From an uncultured Clostridia bacterium (lineage in GTDB: Bacteria > Bacillota_A > Clostridia > Oscillospirales > Oscillospiraceae), in the NCBI GenBank assembly GCA_949289625.1, contig CASEPH010000318.1, forward strand, positions 1-16,870: DNA of 16,870 nt, read 5' to 3'. The first letter of the stretch is position 1, and every line of letters begins with the position of its first letter. The position numbers were made by a program, and so were the translations under genes. Of the stretch, positions 1-15,404 are shown one piece after another. The notes under the pieces were generated by a model, which saw only the letters and a program-made list of their open reading frames with translations, was not told where the DNA came from and did no database searches.

Positions 1-179
1 AGGACTTCATAGGCCTCGCCGATTTCTTTGAATCTGGCCTCCGCAGCCTTATCCCCGGGGTGCAGGTCAGGGTGATTGGCCTTGGCGGCTTTTCGATATG
101 CTTTTTTGATCTCGTCCTCGGTGGCGGATTTGTCTACGCCAAGGACTTCATAATAATCTCTTTTTTCTTGATCAGCCAT
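1..179 (-). CDS. dnaJ: Chaperone DnaJ (Hsp40), N-terminal part, cut by window edge
   Basis: Only the first 59 codons are visible. They encode a J domain: the start [15 protein letters not shown], a helix II rich in Lys and Ala, and the HPD tripeptide (in NHPDLHPGD, near residues 40-48). The HPD loop of this family stimulates ATP hydrolysis by DnaK, so that substrate is locked into the partner chaperone. The ATG at 179 has a good ribosome site, GAGGTGA, at 186-192. It is the last visible gene of the hrcA-grpE-dnaK-dnaJ operon, 81 bp after dnaK, and a strong stem-loop lies in that gap. The Gly/Phe, zinc-finger and C-terminal domains would lie outside the window, so full-length DnaJ rather than another J-domain protein is inferred from gene order. 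Confidence 0.95.
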
Positions 180-213
180 AATCACTCACCTCGTCAGATG
201 GATCTACACACAA

Positions 214-247
214 GGTGGAGCGTGAAGGTAAGGCTCCACGCTCCACC
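214..247 (-). other. Perfect 11-bp stem-loop between dnaK and dnaJ
   Basis: GGTGGAGCGTG at 214-224 is the exact reverse complement of 237-247, with a 12-nt loop. It starts 13 bp past the dnaK stop codon. On the transcribed (minus) strand it is followed by TTGTGTG rather than a T-run, so it is not a standard intrinsic terminator. It may stabilise or process the mRNA, or attenuate transcription, so that dnaJ is made in smaller amounts than dnaK. The structure is seen; the role is inferred. Confidence 0.7.
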
Positions 248-260
248 AATACTGCATAAA

Positions 261-2090
261 TTACTGATCGTCGTCCACGACTTCGTAGTCTGCGTCCACC
301 ACGCCGTCGTCGTTGGGAGCGGAACCGGCAGCACTTGCGGAACCGGCGTCGGCCTGCGCCTGCTGCTGATACAGCTTTTCAGAGATGCTGTAGAAGGCCT
401 TCTGGACTTCATCTGTGGCAGTCTTGATAGCCTCCACATCGGAGCCTTTCAGCGCCTCGCGGAGCTTTTCGATGGCCGCCTGAATGGGAGCCTTCTCGCT
501 GTCGGAAACCTTGTCGCCCAGCTCCTCCAGAGTCTTTTCGGACTGATAGATCACCTGATCGGCAGCGTTACGGGCATCCACCTCGTCCTTCCGTGCCTTA
601 TCTTCGGCGGCGTACTGCTCAGCTTCCTTCACAGCCTTTTCGATGTCCTCCTTGGAGAGGTTGGAGGAAGAGGTGATGGTGATATGCTGCTCCTTGCCGG
701 TGCCCTTGTCGGTGGCGGAGACGTTTACGATGCCGTTGGCATCAATGTCAAAGGTAACTTCGATCTGCGGAACACCGCGACGGGCAGGAGCAATGCCGTC
801 CAGATGGAACTTGCCCAACGTCTTGTTGTAGGCAGCCATCTCGCGCTCGCCCTGGAGCACATGGACTTCCACGGAAGTCTGGTTGTCTGCAGCGGTGGAG
901 AAGATCTGGCTCTTCTTGGTGGGAATAGTGGTGTTACGCTCAATGAGCTTGGTGAACACGCCGCCCATGGTCTCAATGCCCAGGCTCAGCGGGGTCACGT
1001 CCAGCAGCAACAGACCCTTGACGTCGCCGCCCAGCACGCCAGCCTGAATGGCAGCGCCCACGGCCACGCATTCGTCGGGGTTGATGCCCTTGAAGCCTTC
1101 CTTACCGGTGATCTTCTTCACGGCTTCCTGCACAGCGGGAATACGGCTGGAGCCGCCCACCAGCAGGACCTTGGACAGGTCGGAGTTGGAAAGACCGGCG
1201 TCGCTCATAGCCTGGCGAACAGGCACCATGGTCTTTTCTACCAGATCGGCGGTGAGTTCATTGAACTTGGCCCGGGACAGGGTCACGTCCAGATGCTTGG
1301 GGCCGGTGGCGTCGGCGGTAATATAGGGCAGGTTGATGTTGGAGGTGGTGACGCTGGAGAGCTCGATCTTTGCTTTCTCAGCGGCCTCCTTCAGACGCTG
1401 CATAGCCACCTTGTCGGCGGTCAGGTCAATGCCGTTTTCCTTTTTGAACTCGGAAGCCAGATAGTTCATGATTCTCTGGTCGAAGTCGTCGCCGCCCAGA
1501 TGGGTGTCGCCGGCAGTGGCCAGAACCTCGATGACGCCGTCGCCGATCTCCAGGATGGAGACGTCGAAGGTACCGCCGCCCAGGTCATATACCATGACCT
1601 TCTGGTCTTCCTCTTTGTCCACACCGTAGGCCAGTGCAGCCGCGGTGGGTTCGTTGATGATACGCTTGACGTCCAGACCGGCGATCCGGCCGGCGTCCTT
1701 GGTGGCCTGACGCTGGGCGTCGTTGAAGTATGCGGGGACAGTGATAACAGCCTCCGTCACGGTCTGGCCCAGATAGGCCTCGGCGTCCGCCTTCAGCTTC
1801 TGCAGGATCATGGCGGAGATCTCCTGGGGGGTGTAGTGCTTGCCGTCCACAGTAACCTTCTGATCCGTGCCCATCTTACGCTTAATGGATGCGATGGTCC
1901 GGTCGGGGTTCTGGATGGCCTGGCGCTTTGCCACCTGACCTACCATACGCTCACCGGTCTTGGAAAATGCCACCACGGAAGGGGTAGTTCTGCTGCCCTC
2001 AGCGTTTGCGATAACCACGGGCTCGCCGCCCTCCATCACTGCAACGCAGGAGTTTGTAGTGCCCAAATCAATACCAATCATTTTAGCCAT
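261..2090 (-). CDS. dnaK: Chaperone DnaK (Hsp70)
   Basis: ATP-dependent cytoplasmic chaperone that binds exposed hydrophobic peptides, working with DnaJ (ATPase stimulation) and GrpE (nucleotide exchange). The 609-aa product has all Hsp70 marks: phosphate-binding GIDLGTTNS at residues 6-14, [14 protein letters not shown] at 167-180, the adenosine motif [10 protein letters not shown] at 311-320, and the interdomain linker with [15 protein letters not shown] at about 357-371. The substrate-binding domain and an acidic C-terminus ending in [11 protein letters not shown] follow. The stretch around residue 75-85 is short, as expected for Gram-positive DnaK, which lacks the insert found in proteobacteria. 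The ATG at 2090 has a strong site, AGGAGGAA, at 2098-2105. It is third in the HrcA-controlled operon, 50 bp after grpE. A long open frame on the opposite strand is treated as an artefact. Confidence 0.99.
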
Positions 2091-2140
2091 AATAAAGTTC
2101 CTCCTATATGAAAATCTATATTTTACAAAATCAAATGGGG

Positions 2141-6285: not shown

Positions 6286-7659
6286 TTATGGGTCCCATTG
6301 GGTCCAATCCAGCAAGAAATAGGTATTGCCACAGCTGGAGTTGGCCCAGATGGTCCAGGAACAGGCCACAGGACGGGAAGACGCATAAGCGGAGATGGCG
6401 TCGCTGAGGGATTCCCAGGTCAGTTCCTGACCGAATAGCATGGTATAAAAAGTGGACTGACCCTGATTTTGTCTGGTTTCATAGAGATAGGCGGCCATTT
6501 CGTTGACATCGGTAAAGACGGTGCCGAAGCCGGCTTCACCGCAGGTGTAATAGAACAGGCTGGTATCGGTGATGGCAGCCACAGGAGCCGTTTCAGAAAC
6601 GGTGTTCCAAGTGCGGGAGGCACACAGGTCGAGCCCCACGTTTAGCCATTGATAATTGAGAGGACGGTTGCCGGCATCGCCAGAGCTTGCGTCGTAAGTT
6701 ACGTCCACAATGTACCACTGCCCGTTTCGCTCGATGGTGTTCCAGCGGTGGGGTTCCCCGGTATCCCAGCCGTCCTGCCGCCTTACTTGAAACCCTGCCA
6801 GTTCGCCCAACAGGAAAAAGGCATCGGAGAATCCCTGGCAGTTGGCCTGGCCATATACCAGTGCCCCTACGGCGGTAAGAATGGTGTGGGGCGTATTGTC
6901 CTCGGGTAGGACGACGTCCTCAAAGCCCACATAGGTTACGGTCTGGCACAGGTAGTCGTGGAGCGCTTTTTCCAGCTGCAGATCGGAGGAGGTGTTGGCT
7001 TTCGCCTGGTTGACCACAGCCATGGCAGTGTCATAGGCGGACAGTTCTTCCGGGGTCAGATAGGAAAAATCTCCGGTTTCGGCGGCATGGAGAATGCGGG
7101 TTCCAGCATAATAGCTGGGCTCCATGGTGAGAAGACCAGTGCTGACATCGGTGGTATATTGAAAAGAATACTCCATCAGCAGTTCCCGTACCCATGTGGT
7201 CCAATCTGGTTCCTGGATAAGGATACTTAGATCGTCCAGATAGATGGAGATGGTTTCGGGGCATTGGGCGGCAGCTTCCCGCAAATAGTCTCTGGCGTCT
7301 GATAAGGTAGCGAACCTGGGCACACCGGGATCATCCGGCGTCGGCGTGGGGCTGGGCGTTGGTGTAGGTGTAGAAAGCGGACTGGGAGTAGCCGTGGGGG
7401 GTGAACTGATTGATGGGGTAGATGTGGGCGATGGTTTTTGAAGAATCGCAGGCGGGGTGGTCTGTACCGTGTCAGAAGGCGTGTTCCCGGATATTTGCGG
7501 TGTCCGCAGTGGGGACAGGGAGGGCCATATGGTAATTTCAGCAGAGGAAGAAGGGCGAGAGATCGTGGAAAAAGGAGATGCCGGGGAAGCGACACATGCT
7601 CCGATGGACAACAGCAGGAGCAGACAAACGACCAAGGGGAAATGCCGACGTTTTTTCAC
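6286..7659 (-). CDS. Lipoprotein with transglutaminase-like (cysteine protease fold) domain
   Basis: A 457-aa surface lipoprotein. It has a basic start and hydrophobic segment (residues 1-18), then lipobox IGAC with Cys22 as the lipid anchor. A Pro/Thr/Ser-rich stalk (about 30-112, ending in many Thr-Pro pairs) probably spans the cell wall. The C-terminal half is transglutaminase-like, with the three expected catalytic positions in order: Cys274 in QANCQGFSDAF, His304 in PHRWNTI, and Asp319 in YIVDVTYD. Family members act as proteases, peptide amidases or cross-linking enzymes, and the substrate cannot be told here. The start is GTG at 7659 with AAAGGA (7669-7674) upstream. It is monocistronic, convergent with icd, and shares its upstream region with the small Xre gene. 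Confidence 0.85.
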   Translation of the reverse strand: MKKRRHFPLVVCLLLLLSIGACVASPASPFSTISRPSSSAEITIWPSLSPLRTPQISGNTPSDTVQTTPPAILQKPSPTSTPSISSPPTATPSPLSTPTPTPSPTPTPDDPGVPRFATLSDARDYLREAAAQCPETISIYLDDLSILIQEPDWTTWVRELLMEYSFQYTTDVSTGLLTMEPSYYAGTRILHAAETGDFSYLTPEELSAYDTAMAVVNQAKANTSSDLQLEKALHDYLCQTVTYVGFEDVVLPEDNTPHTILTAVGALVYGQANCQGFSDAFFLLGELAGFQVRRQDGWDTGEPHRWNTIERNGQWYIVDVTYDASSGDAGNRPLNYQWLNVGLDLCASRTWNTVSETAPVAAITDTSLFYYTCGEAGFGTVFTDVNEMAAYLYETRQNQGQSTFYTMLFGQELTWESLSDAISAYASSRPVACSWTIWANSSCGNTYFLLDWTQWDP

Positions 7660-7689
7660 AAGACCACGTCCTTTGCTAATGTTGCGTAT

Positions 7690-7718
7690 AGCATATCATA
7701 ATATTGACACTGTGACAA
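7690..7718 (-). promoter_or_regulatory. Promoter of the transglutaminase-like lipoprotein gene
   Basis: On the minus strand: -35 TTGTCA (7713-7718), 17-bp spacer, -10 TATGCT (7690-7695). It lies 30 bp before the GTG start. A plus-strand TTGACA at 7704-7709 overlaps it but lacks a good -10. Confidence 0.6.
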
Positions 7719-7767
7719 CGGGAGAAATTACAACGGAGCAGCGAACAGAAAGACGCTGTTTGCGTGA

Positions 7768-7797
7768 TTGCTTTTTGAGCAAAAGGGCTGTTACAAT
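7768..7797 (+). promoter_or_regulatory. Candidate promoter of the small Xre gene
   Basis: -35 TTGCTT (7768-7773), 18-bp spacer, -10 TACAAT (7792-7797), 40 bp before the ATG. The -10 is good and the -35 weak. Confidence 0.4.
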
Positions 7798-7837
7798 AAA
7801 ACTGCGGCCGCAAGATTCAAATGAGGAGGGATCGTCC

Positions 7838-8002
7838 ATGACTATTGGAGAGAGGATCCGGACACTGCGTTTGGAAAACCATATGACCCAGGAAAGGCTT
7901 GCCCGGCAGCTCAAAATCTCCCCGCAGACGGTGTCGAAGTGGGAAAAAGATATTACAGCGCCGGATATTTTGCTTTTAGGAGAAATTTTTCCAGAAGTTT
8001 AA
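7838..8002 (+). CDS. Short Xre/Cro-type DNA-binding protein, probably truncated
   Basis: A 54-aa product that is nearly all helix-turn-helix: MTIGERIRTLR, then ENHMTQERLARQLKISPQTVSKWEKDITAPDI (about 14-44), a clear HTH_3/Xre pattern with the recognition helix at SPQTVSKWE. Relatives usually continue after PDI..L with another helix and then a sensor or dimerisation part. Here the frame stops at once (LLLGEIFPEV, then TAA). The ATG at 7838 has GAGGAGGGA (7823-7831) and a candidate promoter. I cannot see a continuation in another frame before 8104, so it is either a remnant or a mini-regulator. Longer open frames upstream of 7838 are not protein-like and overlap the lipoprotein gene. Confidence 0.6.
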   Translation: MTIGERIRTLRLENHMTQERLARQLKISPQTVSKWEKDITAPDILLLGEIFPEV

Positions 8003-8103: not shown

Positions 8104-9900
8104 TTAACGCCCGTCGGCGTAGTACTCGTCGTAGGCGTTCTGATAAACGGCGATGATCTCGGGCAGACCCATGCTCTCACAGGTAGCAACATAGGTATCC
8201 CAGTTCTCGTCGTTGAGCTCCAGAGAGCCGTCCAGGAACTTCAGGCACTGCTCAGCAGCGTAAGTCAGGAAGTCGGACTCATAATCGGCAATCTCCAAGG
8301 TCTCGTCGGAAGTCAGAGTGTTCTTCACAGCGGAGGGATAGTACCGATCATCGGTGGAGCCGTCGATGGTCCACAGCTCTACAGCGTCAAGACCGGTCTG
8401 GGGGAAGGTGGGCAGCAGCATATCGTTGTCCACATAGAAGCTGGCAAAGCGCAGCATGGTGAACAGCTGCTGAGCCATCTCAGCGTTGGGGGCGTTTCTG
8501 CCGGTAACAGTAACGGGCTGATCCCAATCAAAGACAGGAGTGTCGCCGTCCATGTGATAGCTCTCGCCCTCGGTGCCGTAGTTGCCCAGGTAGTAGCCGT
8601 CGGTGGTCCAGAAGTAGTTCTCCCACTGGCAGACCAGCTCGGGGTTATCACAGTTGGCGGACAGGGAGAAGCCAGCCATGGAGGACACCAGGGCTACTTC
8701 GTCGTTCCATACATACTGAGCGGAGGGATCCTGAGCCACGCGAGGCAGAGCCTGCACGGTCAGCTCGGGGTAATCGGCACCGTAGGTGTCTACAATCTCC
8801 TCGATCTTATCAGCATTGGACTGCCATACGCCGATGGCACCGCTGGCCTGCATGGTGTTGGTTACCATACGGTCGGTGTCCAGGGACAGGAAATCCCGAG
8901 CCATGATGCCCTCGTCAAACATCTGCAGAACCCACTCCAGGTACTCCCGGTAGCCGTCGGTGGTCCAGCCGGACATAACCTCGTCGCCCTTGCGGAAGAT
9001 GGCGGAGGTGACCATGGTCATAAAGCCGTCGCCGTTGAGCACGGGAATTTCCGTATCAAAGGCAGCTTCCAGGCCCACGGTGCCATCATACATATAAATG
9101 GTATTAGAGCAGTTGTAGGCGCTGTAGATGGTGCGCAGATACTCGGTGAACTCATCCAGAGAGATCACGTCGCCGGAGAAGGTGATGCCCTGCTCGGCAA
9201 TCCAGTCGCCACGGGACACAAAGCCGTTTCCGGAATAGGTGCCATCCTTGATCTGATAGAAAGCCAGGGTCATGCCATCGGTCAGAGTAGCCTTTACGGT
9301 GGACTCATCCAAGCAGTCACGAACTGCCAGATAGTTGGGCATGTTGTCTTCCATGTAATCATTGATGTCCAAAATGATGCCGTCCTCGTAGGCTTTGGAC
9401 AGGCCGCCGGAGTAGTACTCCATAACGGGGAGCAGATCGGGGTAATCGCCGCCGGCTACCATCACGTTGAACAGCTCACTGGTGGACTGGGAGCTGACTT
9501 CGGTGAACTCCAGCTTCACACCTGTGGCCTCTTCTGCGGCGGCCAGGGCGTTAAAGCTGTTGTTGGAATCCATGAAGTCCTGATAGGGAGGAATGTAGTA
9601 CCACATAGAAATGGTGTTGTCTCCCTCCAGGGGGTAGGAGATGTACTCTTCTGCCATAGCGGCGAAAGGATCGCCGACGGTTTCCGCAACCGTTCCGGAT
9701 TCCTCGGCAGAAGTGGGTTCTGCGGCAGAATCGGGAGTTTCCGGTGCAGCAGCTTCGGGTTCGGTGCTTGTTTCTGGTGCAGTGGTCTCCTCGGAAGCCG
9801 CAGAGGCTGCGGACTCGGTGGAAGAGGACTCGGTGCCACAGGCGCTGAACAGAGCCAGCACCATGGTGAGAACCAGAAGAAGCGACAGGATTTTCTTCAT
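8104..9900 (-). CDS. Extracellular solute-binding lipoprotein (ABC transporter type, family 1-like)
   Basis: A 598-aa lipoprotein: signal peptide MKKILSLLLVLTMVLALFSAC, with Cys21 in the lipobox FSAC. A Ser/Glu/Ala/Thr/Pro-rich linker follows (22-75), then a large binding domain (about 80-598). Length, order and features such as NTISMWYYIPPY (95-106), VMVAGGDYPDLLP (146-158) and many Trp, Tyr and Asp residues fit the large oligosaccharide-type binding proteins (LipO/YtcQ-like) of Firmicutes. The ligand is unknown; a sugar polymer fragment is the usual type. The ATG at 9900 has TGAGGT (9908-9913). It has a near-consensus promoter and a strong terminator, so it is a single-gene unit. No permease or ATPase gene is visible in the window, so its transporter must be encoded elsewhere. 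Confidence 0.88.
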   Translation of the reverse strand: MKKILSLLLVLTMVLALFSACGTESSSTESAASAASEETTAPETSTEPEAAAPETPDSAAEPTSAEESGTVAETVGDPFAAMAEEYISYPLEGDNTISMWYYIPPYQDFMDSNNSFNALAAAEEATGVKLEFTEVSSQSTSELFNVMVAGGDYPDLLPVMEYYSGGLSKAYEDGIILDINDYMEDNMPNYLAVRDCLDESTVKATLTDGMTLAFYQIKDGTYSGNGFVSRGDWIAEQGITFSGDVISLDEFTEYLRTIYSAYNCSNTIYMYDGTVGLEAAFDTEIPVLNGDGFMTMVTSAIFRKGDEVMSGWTTDGYREYLEWVLQMFDEGIMARDFLSLDTDRMVTNTMQASGAIGVWQSNADKIEEIVDTYGADYPELTVQALPRVAQDPSAQYVWNDEVALVSSMAGFSLSANCDNPELVCQWENYFWTTDGYYLGNYGTEGESYHMDGDTPVFDWDQPVTVTGRNAPNAEMAQQLFTMLRFASFYVDNDMLLPTFPQTGLDAVELWTIDGSTDDRYYPSAVKNTLTSDETLEIADYESDFLTYAAEQCLKFLDGSLELNDENWDTYVATCESMGLPEIIAVYQNAYDEYYADGR

Positions 9901-12380: not shown

Positions 12381-13028
12381 TCAGTCATCCTTGGAATTCA
12401 TCAAGAGATTGTAGGCGGCAATTTTTTGGGCGTTGCTGATATCAAATCCGCCTCCCTTGCCGCCGGTGGCCATGCTGTTGGATGGTGTGTTTTGCGCACT
12501 GAAAGCGGCATACATGGCGGCATTTTGCGCAGCAATCTTGTGCTGCAGCTTTTCTTCCTTTGTCATGGACTGTTTCTTCTTTTTCATGTTGTATACCTCC
12601 TCTAGCTCGTCGAGATAGCGGAACCGGGGATGGATGTCTACCTTGGGCAGTGGGAATTCCACAGACACATCTTCCATCCGGTTGATCAGTTCCTGGGCAG
12701 AGGTCAGGGCTTCGGAGTCGATGGTATCCGCCACGGAAAGAATGTTTTTCAGATTCTTCTGTTCCGTCCGAAGGCGATCCCGATAGGCGGTGAAAATGGA
12801 GGGGATCTCCTCCGGGCAGGTCTGGATGCGCCGAATCTCATCCACCGAAAAGCGAGCTCTGCGCAGAGTGGCGATGTCAAAAAGCTGCTGAATGTTTTCC
12901 TCGGAATAGGTGCGGTACTCTCTTCCGTTCTGGCAGCTTTTTTCTGGGGATAAAAGTCCCTGGGCCTCATAGAAGCGAATGGTCTTTTTGCTCAGTCCGG
13001 TCCGTTGGCTGACATCCTTGATCTTCAT
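12381..13028 (-). CDS. MerR-family transcription regulator, soluble paralogue
   Basis: A 215-aa regulator. The N-terminal MerR winged helix-turn-helix is clear: MKIKDVSQRTGLSKKTIRFYE (1-21), then GLLSPEK, NGREYRTYSEENIQQLFDIATLRRARFSVDEI (34-65). A dimerisation helix follows to about 120. The rest fits no effector domain I know: a segment with PLP..D..P.F..LD..EE (126-144), then a Lys-rich patch (149-163) and an Ala/Gln/Gly-rich tail. The first 144 residues align without gaps to the membrane-anchored MerR encoded next to it. The ATG at 13028 has AAAGGGGG (13040-13047). Its promoter has a 19-bp spacer with an inverted repeat, so it probably regulates itself. The inducer is unknown; there is no obvious metal-binding cysteine cluster. 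Confidence 0.9.
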   Translation of the reverse strand: MKIKDVSQRTGLSKKTIRFYEAQGLLSPEKSCQNGREYRTYSEENIQQLFDIATLRRARFSVDEIRRIQTCPEEIPSIFTAYRDRLRTEQKNLKNILSVADTIDSEALTSAQELINRMEDVSVEFPLPKVDIHPRFRYLDELEEVYNMKKKKQSMTKEEKLQHKIAAQNAAMYAAFSAQNTPSNSMATGGKGGGFDISNAQKIAAYNLLMNSKDD

Positions 13029-13055: not shown

Positions 13056-13086
13056 ATTATAGAATGTTCCCTAAGGGGAATGTCAA
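13056..13086 (-). promoter_or_regulatory. MerR-type promoter (19-bp spacer) with operator
   Basis: On the minus strand: -35 TTGACA (13081-13086) and -10 TATAAT (13056-13061), both perfect, but 19 bp apart. The spacer begins with the inverted repeat TTCCC-CTTA-GGGAA (13067-13080). Overlong spacers with an internal dyad are the hallmark of promoters that MerR proteins switch on by twisting the DNA. The predicted leader is about 20 nt. Confidence 0.9.
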
Positions 13087-13176: not shown

Positions 13177-14607
13177 TTAGGATGCCGCAAGTGTTCGGAG
13201 AAGGGCTACAGCAAAATCATATTCCTCTTGGGTAGCGCTTTGCGAAATACATCCATAGACGGAGAGATCCTCCAGTTCAATAGCCCGGAATAAAGCTGTT
13301 CCGCTAAGATCTACCCCATAGGGATTTTCAGGGGACGCCAGATCCTCCGGCAGCGCCCGGCAGGCCTGTTCAAAATCAAAACTGCTGTAGATGTTAAAGG
13401 AATCCCATTCCAGATCGGAGATGAAGGCTAGAGGGTACTCTCCCTGGGTAATGAGATAAGCCAGTTCTTCCGGGCCGTAGTTGGAGATAGACGGATACTG
13501 CTGGACACAAATCTCGTCCAGAGCTAGATAAAAGCCATTGGTATCTGGAAGCTCCCTCGAAACAGCGCGCAACGCCTTTTCCATCTTGTTTAGGTCTGCG
13601 CTTGTAATGTGGGCAGGGACTGCAAATGCAACCCGAAAATTCGGTTTGGAGGGAAGATGCGTGTAGACTGCCAGAACCAGGCCGGCCAGAAGGATGCCGC
13701 CTGCCACACCGGTCAGGAGAATGATGCTTCGCTTTTGCCGTCGTTTTTGCAGCGAATGGGGATCTTCTTGCCCGCCCTGTCGTGCGGCGTCCGACTGCTG
13801 GGCCGCACGAAGCCACCGGCGATGCTCCAGCCACCGGGGTGCCACGAAAAAGCCGATCCGCAGCAGCAGTAGGACGGCAAACAGGATCTTGGGCCAGAGC
13901 CGGGTAGCATAGTGGACGGCAAGTCCAAGACTGACCAACACCAGCAGTGTTAGAAAGCCGGAAAGAAGCCGATACCACCGGGGAAAATAGTAGGTTTTTT
14001 GGACAGGACCGGAGGATTCTTGTTTTTGCGGTTTCCGCAGATCATTGTATTGACCGAATGCAAGATGTATGTTGTTGGTCCGGTCCTTGTCCAGTATCAG
14101 GTTGACCTGACGAAAGGTTCTGGCGTCTGGTACTGTTTCGTCAAGCACTGTCTGAGGTTCCACATGACGGGGGCTTTCTTCCGTGGCGTCAAGACGCTTG
14201 AAGTTTGGTTTCAGATCCATGGTTGGCAGGGGCATACGGGACGCGGACGCGGATAGCTGGTCGGTTAATTGCGCGGTACTGCACAGATCCGTTAAAGCCA
14301 TCCCTTTTGCGGCCTGACGCAGCTGATGGAATTGCTGTTCCTGCTGCTCTAGCCACTGGGCGTAGTGGGCAAAAATATGGGGGATCTGGTCCGGGGATTC
14401 CTGCATGGTTTTGATCTCGTCCATGGTGAACAGGGCACGGCGCAAAATGGCGATCTGCTGAAGCTGCTGTTGCAGCTCCGGCGTGTACTCCCGGTATTCC
14501 CGTCCGTTTCTATAGGTTTTTGCTGGTGCGATCAGGCCTTTTTCCTCGTAAAGCCGCAGGGTTTTTATTGACAGGCCTGTAGCTTCACAGATTTCTTTCC
14601 TGGTCAT
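13177..14607 (-). CDS. Membrane-anchored MerR-family regulator with extracytoplasmic domain
   Basis: A 476-aa protein joining a MerR head to a membrane module. Residues 1-70 are the winged helix-turn-helix (MTRKEICEATGLSIKTLRLYE, NGREYREYTPEL, ILRRALFTMDEI). A Gln-rich helix (about 82-100) and the shared PLP..D..P.F..LD..EE segment (126-144) follow. Candidate membrane spans are near 213-232, 238-256 and 295-315. The loop between spans two and three is strongly basic (RWLEHRRWLR, QKRRQKR) and so cytoplasmic. This places the last 160 residues outside the cell; I recognise no family for that domain. The ATG at 14607 has AAAGGA (14617-14622). No frameshift joins the parts: it is one continuous frame. 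The likely role, a one-component sensor regulating itself and perhaps neighbours, is inference. Confidence 0.85.
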   Translation of the reverse strand: MTRKEICEATGLSIKTLRLYEEKGLIAPAKTYRNGREYREYTPELQQQLQQIAILRRALFTMDEIKTMQESPDQIPHIFAHYAQWLEQQEQQFHQLRQAAKGMALTDLCSTAQLTDQLSASASRMPLPTMDLKPNFKRLDATEESPRHVEPQTVLDETVPDARTFRQVNLILDKDRTNNIHLAFGQYNDLRKPQKQESSGPVQKTYYFPRWYRLLSGFLTLLVLVSLGLAVHYATRLWPKILFAVLLLLRIGFFVAPRWLEHRRWLRAAQQSDAARQGGQEDPHSLQKRRQKRSIILLTGVAGGILLAGLVLAVYTHLPSKPNFRVAFAVPAHITSADLNKMEKALRAVSRELPDTNGFYLALDEICVQQYPSISNYGPEELAYLITQGEYPLAFISDLEWDSFNIYSSFDFEQACRALPEDLASPENPYGVDLSGTALFRAIELEDLSVYGCISQSATQEEYDFAVALLRTLAAS

Positions 14608-14654: not shown

Positions 14655-14685
14655 AATTTAACCTGGGCCCCTGGGGCCTTGTCAA
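14655..14685 (-). promoter_or_regulatory. MerR-type promoter (19-bp spacer) of the membrane-anchored MerR gene
   Basis: On the minus strand: -35 TTGACA (14680-14685), 19-bp spacer, -10 TAAATT (14655-14660). The spacer carries a perfect palindrome, GGCCCC-A-GGGGCC (14666-14678). It has the same architecture as the neighbouring MerR gene but a different operator sequence; both share a CCCC...GGG core. Confidence 0.82.
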
Positions 14686-14875: not shown

Positions 14876-14885
14876 CGTGGAACCC

Positions 14886-15404
14886 ATGATCATCAAAACC
14901 ATGTCTGAGGAAAAAGCAGTAGATCTGCTGCGGGAATGGAGCGGCAAAAACCCCAGCGCCAGAATGACCGAGGCAGAACGGATGTTCCGAACGGCCTGCG
15001 ACCGGTATGTGCTGGTGGAGGTGGAGAATCAGCAGGAGCTGAACCGGCTCTACACGCTGGAGGAGTATCTGACGGGAGGGCGAGGATTCTACCTCTATCT
15101 GCGTTGCCCCAACGATGTAGTGGCCGCCATTCGGGCTGGAAAAACCGCGCTGCCCCATTTTTTCCACCGGGCAGAGGGCCGATACAGCAGCGCTTACAGC
15201 CGGGGAACGGTAAAGATCCTGCTGGGCCTTTTGCAGGAGCAGCTGGACCGTCGCTATGACATGGGGCTGTTTATTGATATTCTGGCCCGGCAGCGGCAGC
15301 GTGCGGAACAACCGATGGAGGAAGCGTCAGTCCAAACGGGGAGACCAATCCAGGACCAGCGGGCCAATGTGACGAGTTATCGCTTCGGAGGGCAGGGCTA
15401 CTAA
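14886..15404 (+). CDS. Conserved-looking hypothetical protein, unknown function
   Basis: I do not recognise this 172-aa family. It is soluble and charged, with no signal peptide or membrane span. The body (residues 1-140) looks folded and alternates helices with aromatic strands, such as GGRGFYLYLRCPNDVVAAI (about 62-80) and TALPHFFHRAEGRYSSAYS (83-101). The C-terminal 35 residues are Gln/Arg-rich and probably disordered. The ATG at 14886 is chosen for its AAAGGAG site. It is divergent from the membrane-anchored MerR gene across a 278-bp region that holds both promoters. It lies 59 bp upstream of the alanyl-tRNA editing gene, with no terminator between (only a 5-bp GGGGC/GCCCC hairpin at 15412-15427 without a T-run), so the two are probably co-transcribed. 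Confidence 0.75.
   Translation: MIIKTMSEEKAVDLLREWSGKNPSARMTEAERMFRTACDRYVLVEVENQQELNRLYTLEEYLTGGRGFYLYLRCPNDVVAAIRAGKTALPHFFHRAEGRYSSAYSRGTVKILLGLLQEQLDRRYDMGLFIDILARQRQRAEQPMEEASVQTGRPIQDQRANVTSYRFGGQGY

Follow-up and report, generated by a model that had tools for sequence, protein, structure and literature searches.

A predicted membrane-anchored MerR regulator behind a MerR-type promoter in an uncultured Clostridia bacterium

Activators of the MerR family repress their promoters and afterwards make both promoter boxes usable for RNA polymerase by distorting the DNA, and a palindrome lying within a spacer of 19-20 bp is a signature of this mode of control (PMC9909328, PMC1526738). TipA has been called a minimal autoregulated system (PMC7762955). 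A 2021 review of the family describes a C-terminal ligand-binding part, and the word "membrane" is absent from the main text of that review (PMC9909328). Membrane-integrated proteins are reported to make up 3% of one-component systems, and in ToxR and CadC a cytoplasmic N-terminal DNA-binding head, a membrane span and a C-terminal outside domain are combined in a single chain (PMC5936718). A 2023 census reported over a hundred DNA-binding domains in transmembrane transcription regulators; in its main text "merr" occurs only as an author name in the references, and membrane MerR proteins may have been counted in its supplement without being described (PMC10269533). Whether tethering limits the access of a regulator to DNA is an open question (PMC11856585), and a DNA-shape-changing MerR protein held in the membrane would be a sharp form of it.

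A gene predicted to encode such a protein lies in the 16,870-nucleotide stretch of DNA analysed here (the window; contig CASEPH010000318.1). Like MerR, CueR, BmrR and TipA, its product has a head of the MerR kind, here followed by a helix that may serve dimerisation, and a promoter with a dyad in a 19-bp spacer is present, in this case in front of its own gene; unlike those activators, it continues after the head into three predicted membrane spans and an outside domain. With ToxR and CadC it shares the order of head, membrane part and outside domain, but these cross the membrane once and have another type of head, and it is set apart by its MerR head, its three spans and its MerR-type core promoter. 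A preliminary description, made from the sequence of the window, had named no described system with this layout and had likened a transmembrane MerR to ToxR and CadC. We likewise found no description of a membrane MerR in the titles and abstract openings of the open-licence papers listed. The kind of layout is already known from ToxR and CadC; what is new is the MerR head in it and the promoter end.

Domain layout and predicted topology

The features of the locus are as follows.

14655..14685, minus strand: MerR-type promoter of the membrane gene, TTGACA, 19 bp with the GGCCCCAGGGGCC dyad, TAAATT
13177..14607, minus strand: membrane-anchored MerR gene (predicted), an open frame of 476 aa with a MerR_1 match
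14398..14607, minus strand: MerR winged helix-turn-helix, residues 1-70 (Pfam MerR_1, PF13411, E 3.9e-13)
14305..14394, minus strand: predicted dimerisation helix, residues 72-101 (AlphaFold2 helix, monomer model)
14047..14232, minus strand: conserved cytoplasmic linker, residues 126-187 (PLPxxDxxPxF ... FRQ ... AFGQ), of low model confidence
13912..13971, minus strand: predicted span TM1, residues about 213-232, in to out (hydropathy and model helix 210-232)
13840..13896, minus strand: predicted span TM2, residues about 238-256, out to in (hydropathy and charges of the flanking loops)
13663..13725, minus strand: predicted span TM3, residues about 295-315, in to out (hydropathy and a K/R-rich preceding loop)
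13180..13659, minus strand: predicted extracytoplasmic domain, residues 317-476, with a predicted fold like a single lobe of type II solute-binding proteins
13056..13086, minus strand: MerR-type promoter of the soluble paralogue, TTGACA, 19 bp with the TTCCCCTTAGGGAA dyad, TATAAT
12381..13028, minus strand: soluble MerR paralogue, 215 aa, the next gene downstream (MerR_1, E 1.9e-17)

The preliminary description had proposed a 476-aa frame in which a canonical MerR head is joined to three membrane segments and an outward-facing domain of about 160 residues. The frame exists and runs on the minus strand from 14607 to 13177, the plus-strand reading of the same stretch being full of stops. Its first 70 residues are indeed a MerR winged helix-turn-helix; only MerR families reached the cut-off on the head, whereas ToxR and CadC carry an OmpR-type winged helix, and a Pfam scan of the 476-aa protein gave no match at the cut-off past residue 70. 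The helix at 72-101 occupies the position of the coiled coil of the MerR family (PMC9909328). Cys7 of the head is invariant in the 110 full-length family members (the window protein and 109 homologues). Its equivalent was also seen in the two-span relatives whose sequences were read, and soluble relatives mostly have Ser or Ala at that position. A PADLOC match to "mad1" covered the helix-turn-helix only and was obtained for the soluble paralogue too, and is not read as a sign of a defence role.

A structure prediction had been suggested as a check on the proposal, and the resulting AlphaFold2 model (a monomer computed from a 22-sequence alignment, with a mean pLDDT of 78.0 and a pTM of 0.41) contains the head, the long helix 72-101, a poorly modelled linker (pLDDT <50 at residues 131-170, 172-175 and 190-203), three long helices over the hydrophobic segments, and an alpha/beta C-terminal domain. 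The outside domain models well (pLDDT 91.9).

The topology rests on hydropathy, charge counts and this model, and is a prediction rather than a measurement. Hydrophobic segments at residues 214-232, 237-255 and 295-313 are overlain by the model helices 210-232, 237-276 and 283-316, and three such segments are found in 106 of the 110 family members, the other four having two. Across the 110 sequences the stretches expected to lie inside carry on average 3.4 (residues 200-213) and 8.2 (the TM2-TM3 loop, 256-294) lysines and arginines, against 0.7 in the TM1-TM2 turn (232-238) and 1.5 in residues 316-340, which are expected to lie outside, and the net charge of the outside domain is negative in every member. 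Because the charges fit the positive-inside rule and three segments are present in 106 of 110 members, the last 160 residues are predicted to lie outside, and the DNA-binding domain, the spans and an outside C-terminal domain are thus predicted to form one chain. A topology check giving no membrane segments at all had been named as one refutation of the proposal of three segments and an outward-facing domain; hydropathy gave three, and the proposal came through.

Homologues and modular relatives

A search of 5.8 billion proteins (best 120 of 124 matches listed) returned at least 109 full-length homologues (109 of the 120 listed) from several sources, 449-511 aa long and matching 99-100% of the query, so that the search for proteins with the same domain order, another check that had been put forward, came out in favour of the layout. 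Among the matches listed, the closest is 98% identical and the remaining full-length homologues are 38-51% identical; three (P0110-P0112) are shorter than the full-length class, and P0113-P0120 (280-301 aa) match the front part only. In seven of these last eight, two hydrophobic segments pass the threshold, P0114 having one and a weaker one, and P0113, P0114, P0115 and P0117 end soon after the segment pair and therefore lack the outside domain.

By HrcA identity the nearest genomes are G576 (88%), G423 (88%), G625 (82%) and G514 (79%), which belong to one genus; all four hold relatives of the head, and none of the 13 matches (E<=1e-15) reaches the outside domain. At the same threshold 11 of 300 genomes of the bacterial family contained relatives, whatever their form, as did 5 of 99 relatives of G514 and none of the 42 genomes of the genus of G036; a class-wide search at the stricter E<=1e-20 gave 0 of 391, a count that carries no information unless some genome is known to match. 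Two scans of genome contigs returned no relative past the bare head, and no relatives were found on plasmids and viral contigs. In the genomes searched, the full three-span form is rare.

The relatives at 15 further loci (L024-L038), in which segments were counted by hydropathy above a threshold, differ in what follows the head. There is no hydrophobic segment at L029, L032, L036 and in the first gene of L035; two segments follow at L024, L031 and L034, and one, in a similar layout, at L026 and L028. L025 and L030 have three or two segments and then a repeat-like outside part (that of L030 matched DUF5050 at a Pfam E of 0.12, below the cut-off), and L027, L038 and the second gene of L035 have one segment with other parts behind it. 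At L037 (5230-7401) a MerR-headed protein of 723 aa has hydrophobic segments at 170-188, 431-449 and 691-709.

In a tree of 35 heads, a quick build with SH-aLRT as its only support measure and with four long branches, 14 three-span rows of the window type group together (SH-aLRT 98) within a set of 26 rows (SH-aLRT 97) that also holds nine rows labelled as two-span, two repeat-like rows and one one-span row; these labels were assigned by hand, and L026, L028 and L030 fall one span short of their label when segments are counted above the hydropathy threshold. The other one-span forms fall outside the 26-row set. With its long branches, the tree allows a tentative reading in which the hairpin anchor is original and outside parts joined it on more than one occasion.

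No conserved neighbourhood naming a target was found among the matches listed: a run of non-MerR neighbours is common only to L026 and L028, and scattered single neighbour matches occur elsewhere among the loci read. At L024 (4784-8769) the two-span MerR gene lies between nrdD and a radical-SAM gene, the latter resembling that of the NrdD activase (nrdG).

Promoters of the membrane MerR genes

The promoter of the membrane gene, in full TTGACA-AGGCCCCAGGGGCCCAGGT-TAAATT, has a dyad with 6 of 6 pairs in its 19-bp spacer, as is seen in the MerR family; its -10 box, TAAATT, is weak, and its distance from the ATG is about double that seen in most relatives. The soluble paralogue is preceded by TTGACA-TTCCCCTTAGGGAACATTC-TATAAT. 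Both sites are exact, and a scan of the window allowing up to two mismatches gave three matches against 0.11 expected, a number also reached by 1 of 200 shuffles.

We compared these promoters with those of relatives in a set of 18 MerR-family genes (2 in the window and 16 in L024-L038), of which 12 are membrane forms, 5 are soluble and 1 is cut by a contig end (L033); within this set the window gene alone combines three spans with this outside domain, the other 11 membrane genes being of other types. All 18 have TTGAC[AT]-19-TAnnnT upstream. The dyad around spacer position 8 averages 5.3 of 6 pairs, in spacers that were chosen with 19 bp in mind (the one at L037 by eye, nothing being listed for it under the mismatch rule) and with ties given to position 8; when ties are not so resolved, this position alone is the best dyad centre in 16 of the 18, and in the other two it is tied with 7.5 or 8.5.

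A count that sets no spacing beforehand, and is the fairer test in this respect, was made over 192,673 bases (the window and 15 loci, the latter fetched for their MerR genes), and gave 21 pairs of boxes at a spacing of 17 bp, 1 at 18, 20 at 19 and 1 at 20. With the dyad measured at one position throughout, at least 4 of 6 pairs were found in 20 of 20 of the 19-bp cases versus 1 of 21 of the 17-bp cases. Eighteen of the 20 belong to MerR genes, and the other two, both in L027, lie within about 3 kb of a membrane MerR start.

A strict scan of 12 genomes, 11 of them picked for holding relatives, found a site in 10 and 21 sites altogether, against none for the reversed pattern; two of the 21, on C64 and C171 of G514, are identical in sequence and stand near contig ends, and they may be a single site. 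Nineteen sites precede a MerR gene of the family (18 by script and one, L052, by reading), and the remaining two are at an ECF sigma gene (L055) and at L044, where the dyad differs and the site is probably due to chance. When one mismatch was allowed in the four genomes of the genus, 15 sites were found against none for the control; 13 stand before MerR genes, one is again that of the ECF sigma gene, and one lies at the frame of a small membrane protein that directly follows a membrane MerR gene (L060).

Given that this geometry precedes the membrane members and is hardly found elsewhere in the scanned genomes, their heads look like working MerR heads for which self-control is the rule; promoter control of the MerR type seems to survive tethering and to be directed mostly at the genes of the heads themselves. 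The preliminary description had remarked that such a protein must twist DNA while tethered, and a MerR-type promoter before this gene and 17 others turns the remark into a concrete claim. Predictable operators, together with outside parts that differ, make the question of tethering testable.

Three observations on individual loci may be added. About 3 kb from a one-span MerR start, a strict MerR-family promoter precedes the ECF sigma gene (L055, or L027 around 9896). At L035 (1-2566) three frames follow one another, those of a soluble MerR protein, of a MerR protein with one span and of a small membrane protein; each stands behind a dyad site with a 19-bp spacer, the last with one mismatch, and the arrangement recalls the tandem pair of the window. 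Around 1531 of L039, in G423, a MerR start behind a strict site runs into a stop after 21 codons, and is either a broken copy or a base error.

A proposed tethered switch and its alternatives

We propose, with a probability of roughly two in three, that the protein is a one-component membrane regulator in which an outside signal switches a MerR head bound at its own promoter without that head leaving the membrane. The layout, the topology, the conserved family, the predicted fold of the outside domain and the MerR geometry of the promoter are supported by computation. For the working of the switch we infer that the head would dimerise and bind its own promoter at the dyad within the 19-bp spacer, and perhaps also the promoter of the neighbouring soluble MerR paralogue and other genes with such sites. 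The two-helix membrane hairpin and the third span would anchor the regulator, and the 160-residue outside domain would receive a signal, for which a ligand or a partner protein is the likeliest candidate; this signal would rearrange the spans and the linker, upon which the DNA-bound dimer would pass from a repressing to a DNA-distorting, activating state while still in the membrane. No regulated effector gene is evident in the genomes and loci scanned, where most sites lead back to MerR genes. Such a family could yield MerR-based sensors for outside ligands.

The outside domain might instead dock onto another protein of the membrane or the wall (a transporter or a solute-binding protein, for example) and read the state of this partner as CadC does with LysP, a reading that we consider somewhat unlikely. 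Solute-binding proteins hold their ligand in a cleft between two lobes. As modelled, the domain resembles one lobe of the type II proteins SfuA, MalE3 and AgtB, 117-127 residues aligning within chain stretches of about 250-300, but at 160 residues it has no room for two lobes and the ligand cleft between them, and it sits in a membrane regulator. A single lobe (about 120 residues aligned) without the two-lobe cleft would suit docking, as would the state of the D-x-D-G-N-G loop, which is kept in 102 of the 110 family members and is degenerate in the window's copy, so that a ligand site may have been lost there; CadC, moreover, senses lysine through LysP only (PMC5936718). On the other hand, no partner gene travels along among the matches listed for the loci read, and the solute-binding-protein gene of the window (8104-9900) ends about 3 kb away and has no profile similarity to the domain. 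For want of that similarity, descent of the domain from this solute-binding protein is likewise unsupported.

Searches with the domain gave no Foldseek match at E<=1e-3 and, with its profile against PDB sequences, a best E of only 0.25; when 16 aligned members were scanned with Pfam and NCBIfam, all matches were at chance level and had no relation to one another. Cys416 and Cys453 are both kept in 104 of the 110 family members.

Proteolytic control of membrane-held transcription factors is established, and the full-length protein could be a dormant precursor whose outside domain triggers cleavage, the freed soluble head then acting like the paralogue. The linker, modelled with low confidence, may be accessible, and a soluble paralogue of roughly the freed size (215 aa) adjoins. 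However, the mean majority-residue frequency of 0.87 over linker residues 126-187 in the 110-sequence family set is above what would be expected of a mere cleavage linker, no intramembrane protease was found among the eight window proteins scanned, and CadC, once thought to require cleavage, does not (PMC5936718); we regard regulated proteolysis as unlikely.

The soluble paralogue is like the membrane protein in its related head, in the start of its linker (PLPxxDIxPxF) and in its promoter type, but it has no membrane part, no hydrophobic segment being found by hydropathy, and it has a C-terminal tail of its own. This tail (FDISNAQKIAAYNLL...DD) is kept in L029 and L032, and a 66-aa frame of L027, behind a promoter with a 19-bp spacer, ends in a similar tail (DLGNEQKLAIMQMLRDD); the tail is a possible docking motif.

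We think it very unlikely that the gene is autonomous and self-limiting, with a head that only represses its own promoter and a membrane part that is a tether or a selfish module. The preponderance of MerR genes behind the sites in the four genus genomes (13 of 15) and the scarcity of other targets would follow from it, but it sits poorly with the conservation of the linker, the outside domain and the Cys pair of this domain in homologues that are 38-51% identical, and with the two further sites, at the ECF sigma gene and the small membrane-protein frame, near membrane MerR genes. That a MerR gene and a membrane-protein gene were fused by a sequencing or assembly error, a doubt raised in the preliminary description and to which the presence of the outside domain on single-span proteins without MerR lends something, is almost certainly wrong, because 109 of the 120 listed homologues, from several sources, keep head and membrane part as one gene, in an unchanged order that spans 99-100% of the length.

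The switch that works from within the membrane may also be placed in a wider frame, although here we would sooner bet against than for: the predicted membrane MerR proteins may form a modular class of switches with exchangeable outside parts (a solute-binding-like lobe, repeat-like domains and others), each behind its own promoter with an overlong spacer and each with its gene drawn to the membrane by transertion. The product would be inserted during its synthesis, the gene would be pulled to the membrane, and the tethered head would meet its operator locally. Were this true, each switch would be a private, self-reinforcing circuit, and the search problem of other membrane regulators would be gone.

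Three other features of the window may be recorded. A 175-aa gene on the plus strand (14877-15404) is divergent from the membrane MerR gene and gave no Pfam or NCBIfam match. The 683-codon open frame at 60-2111, plus strand, is antisense to a dnaK-like gene (261-2090, minus strand) and is probably a by-product of codon usage. At 7457-8002, plus strand, the end of a frame is the short beginning of a helix-turn-helix (MTIGERIRTLRLENHMTQERLARQLKISPQTVSKWEK...) and looks like a truncated XRE-type regulator.
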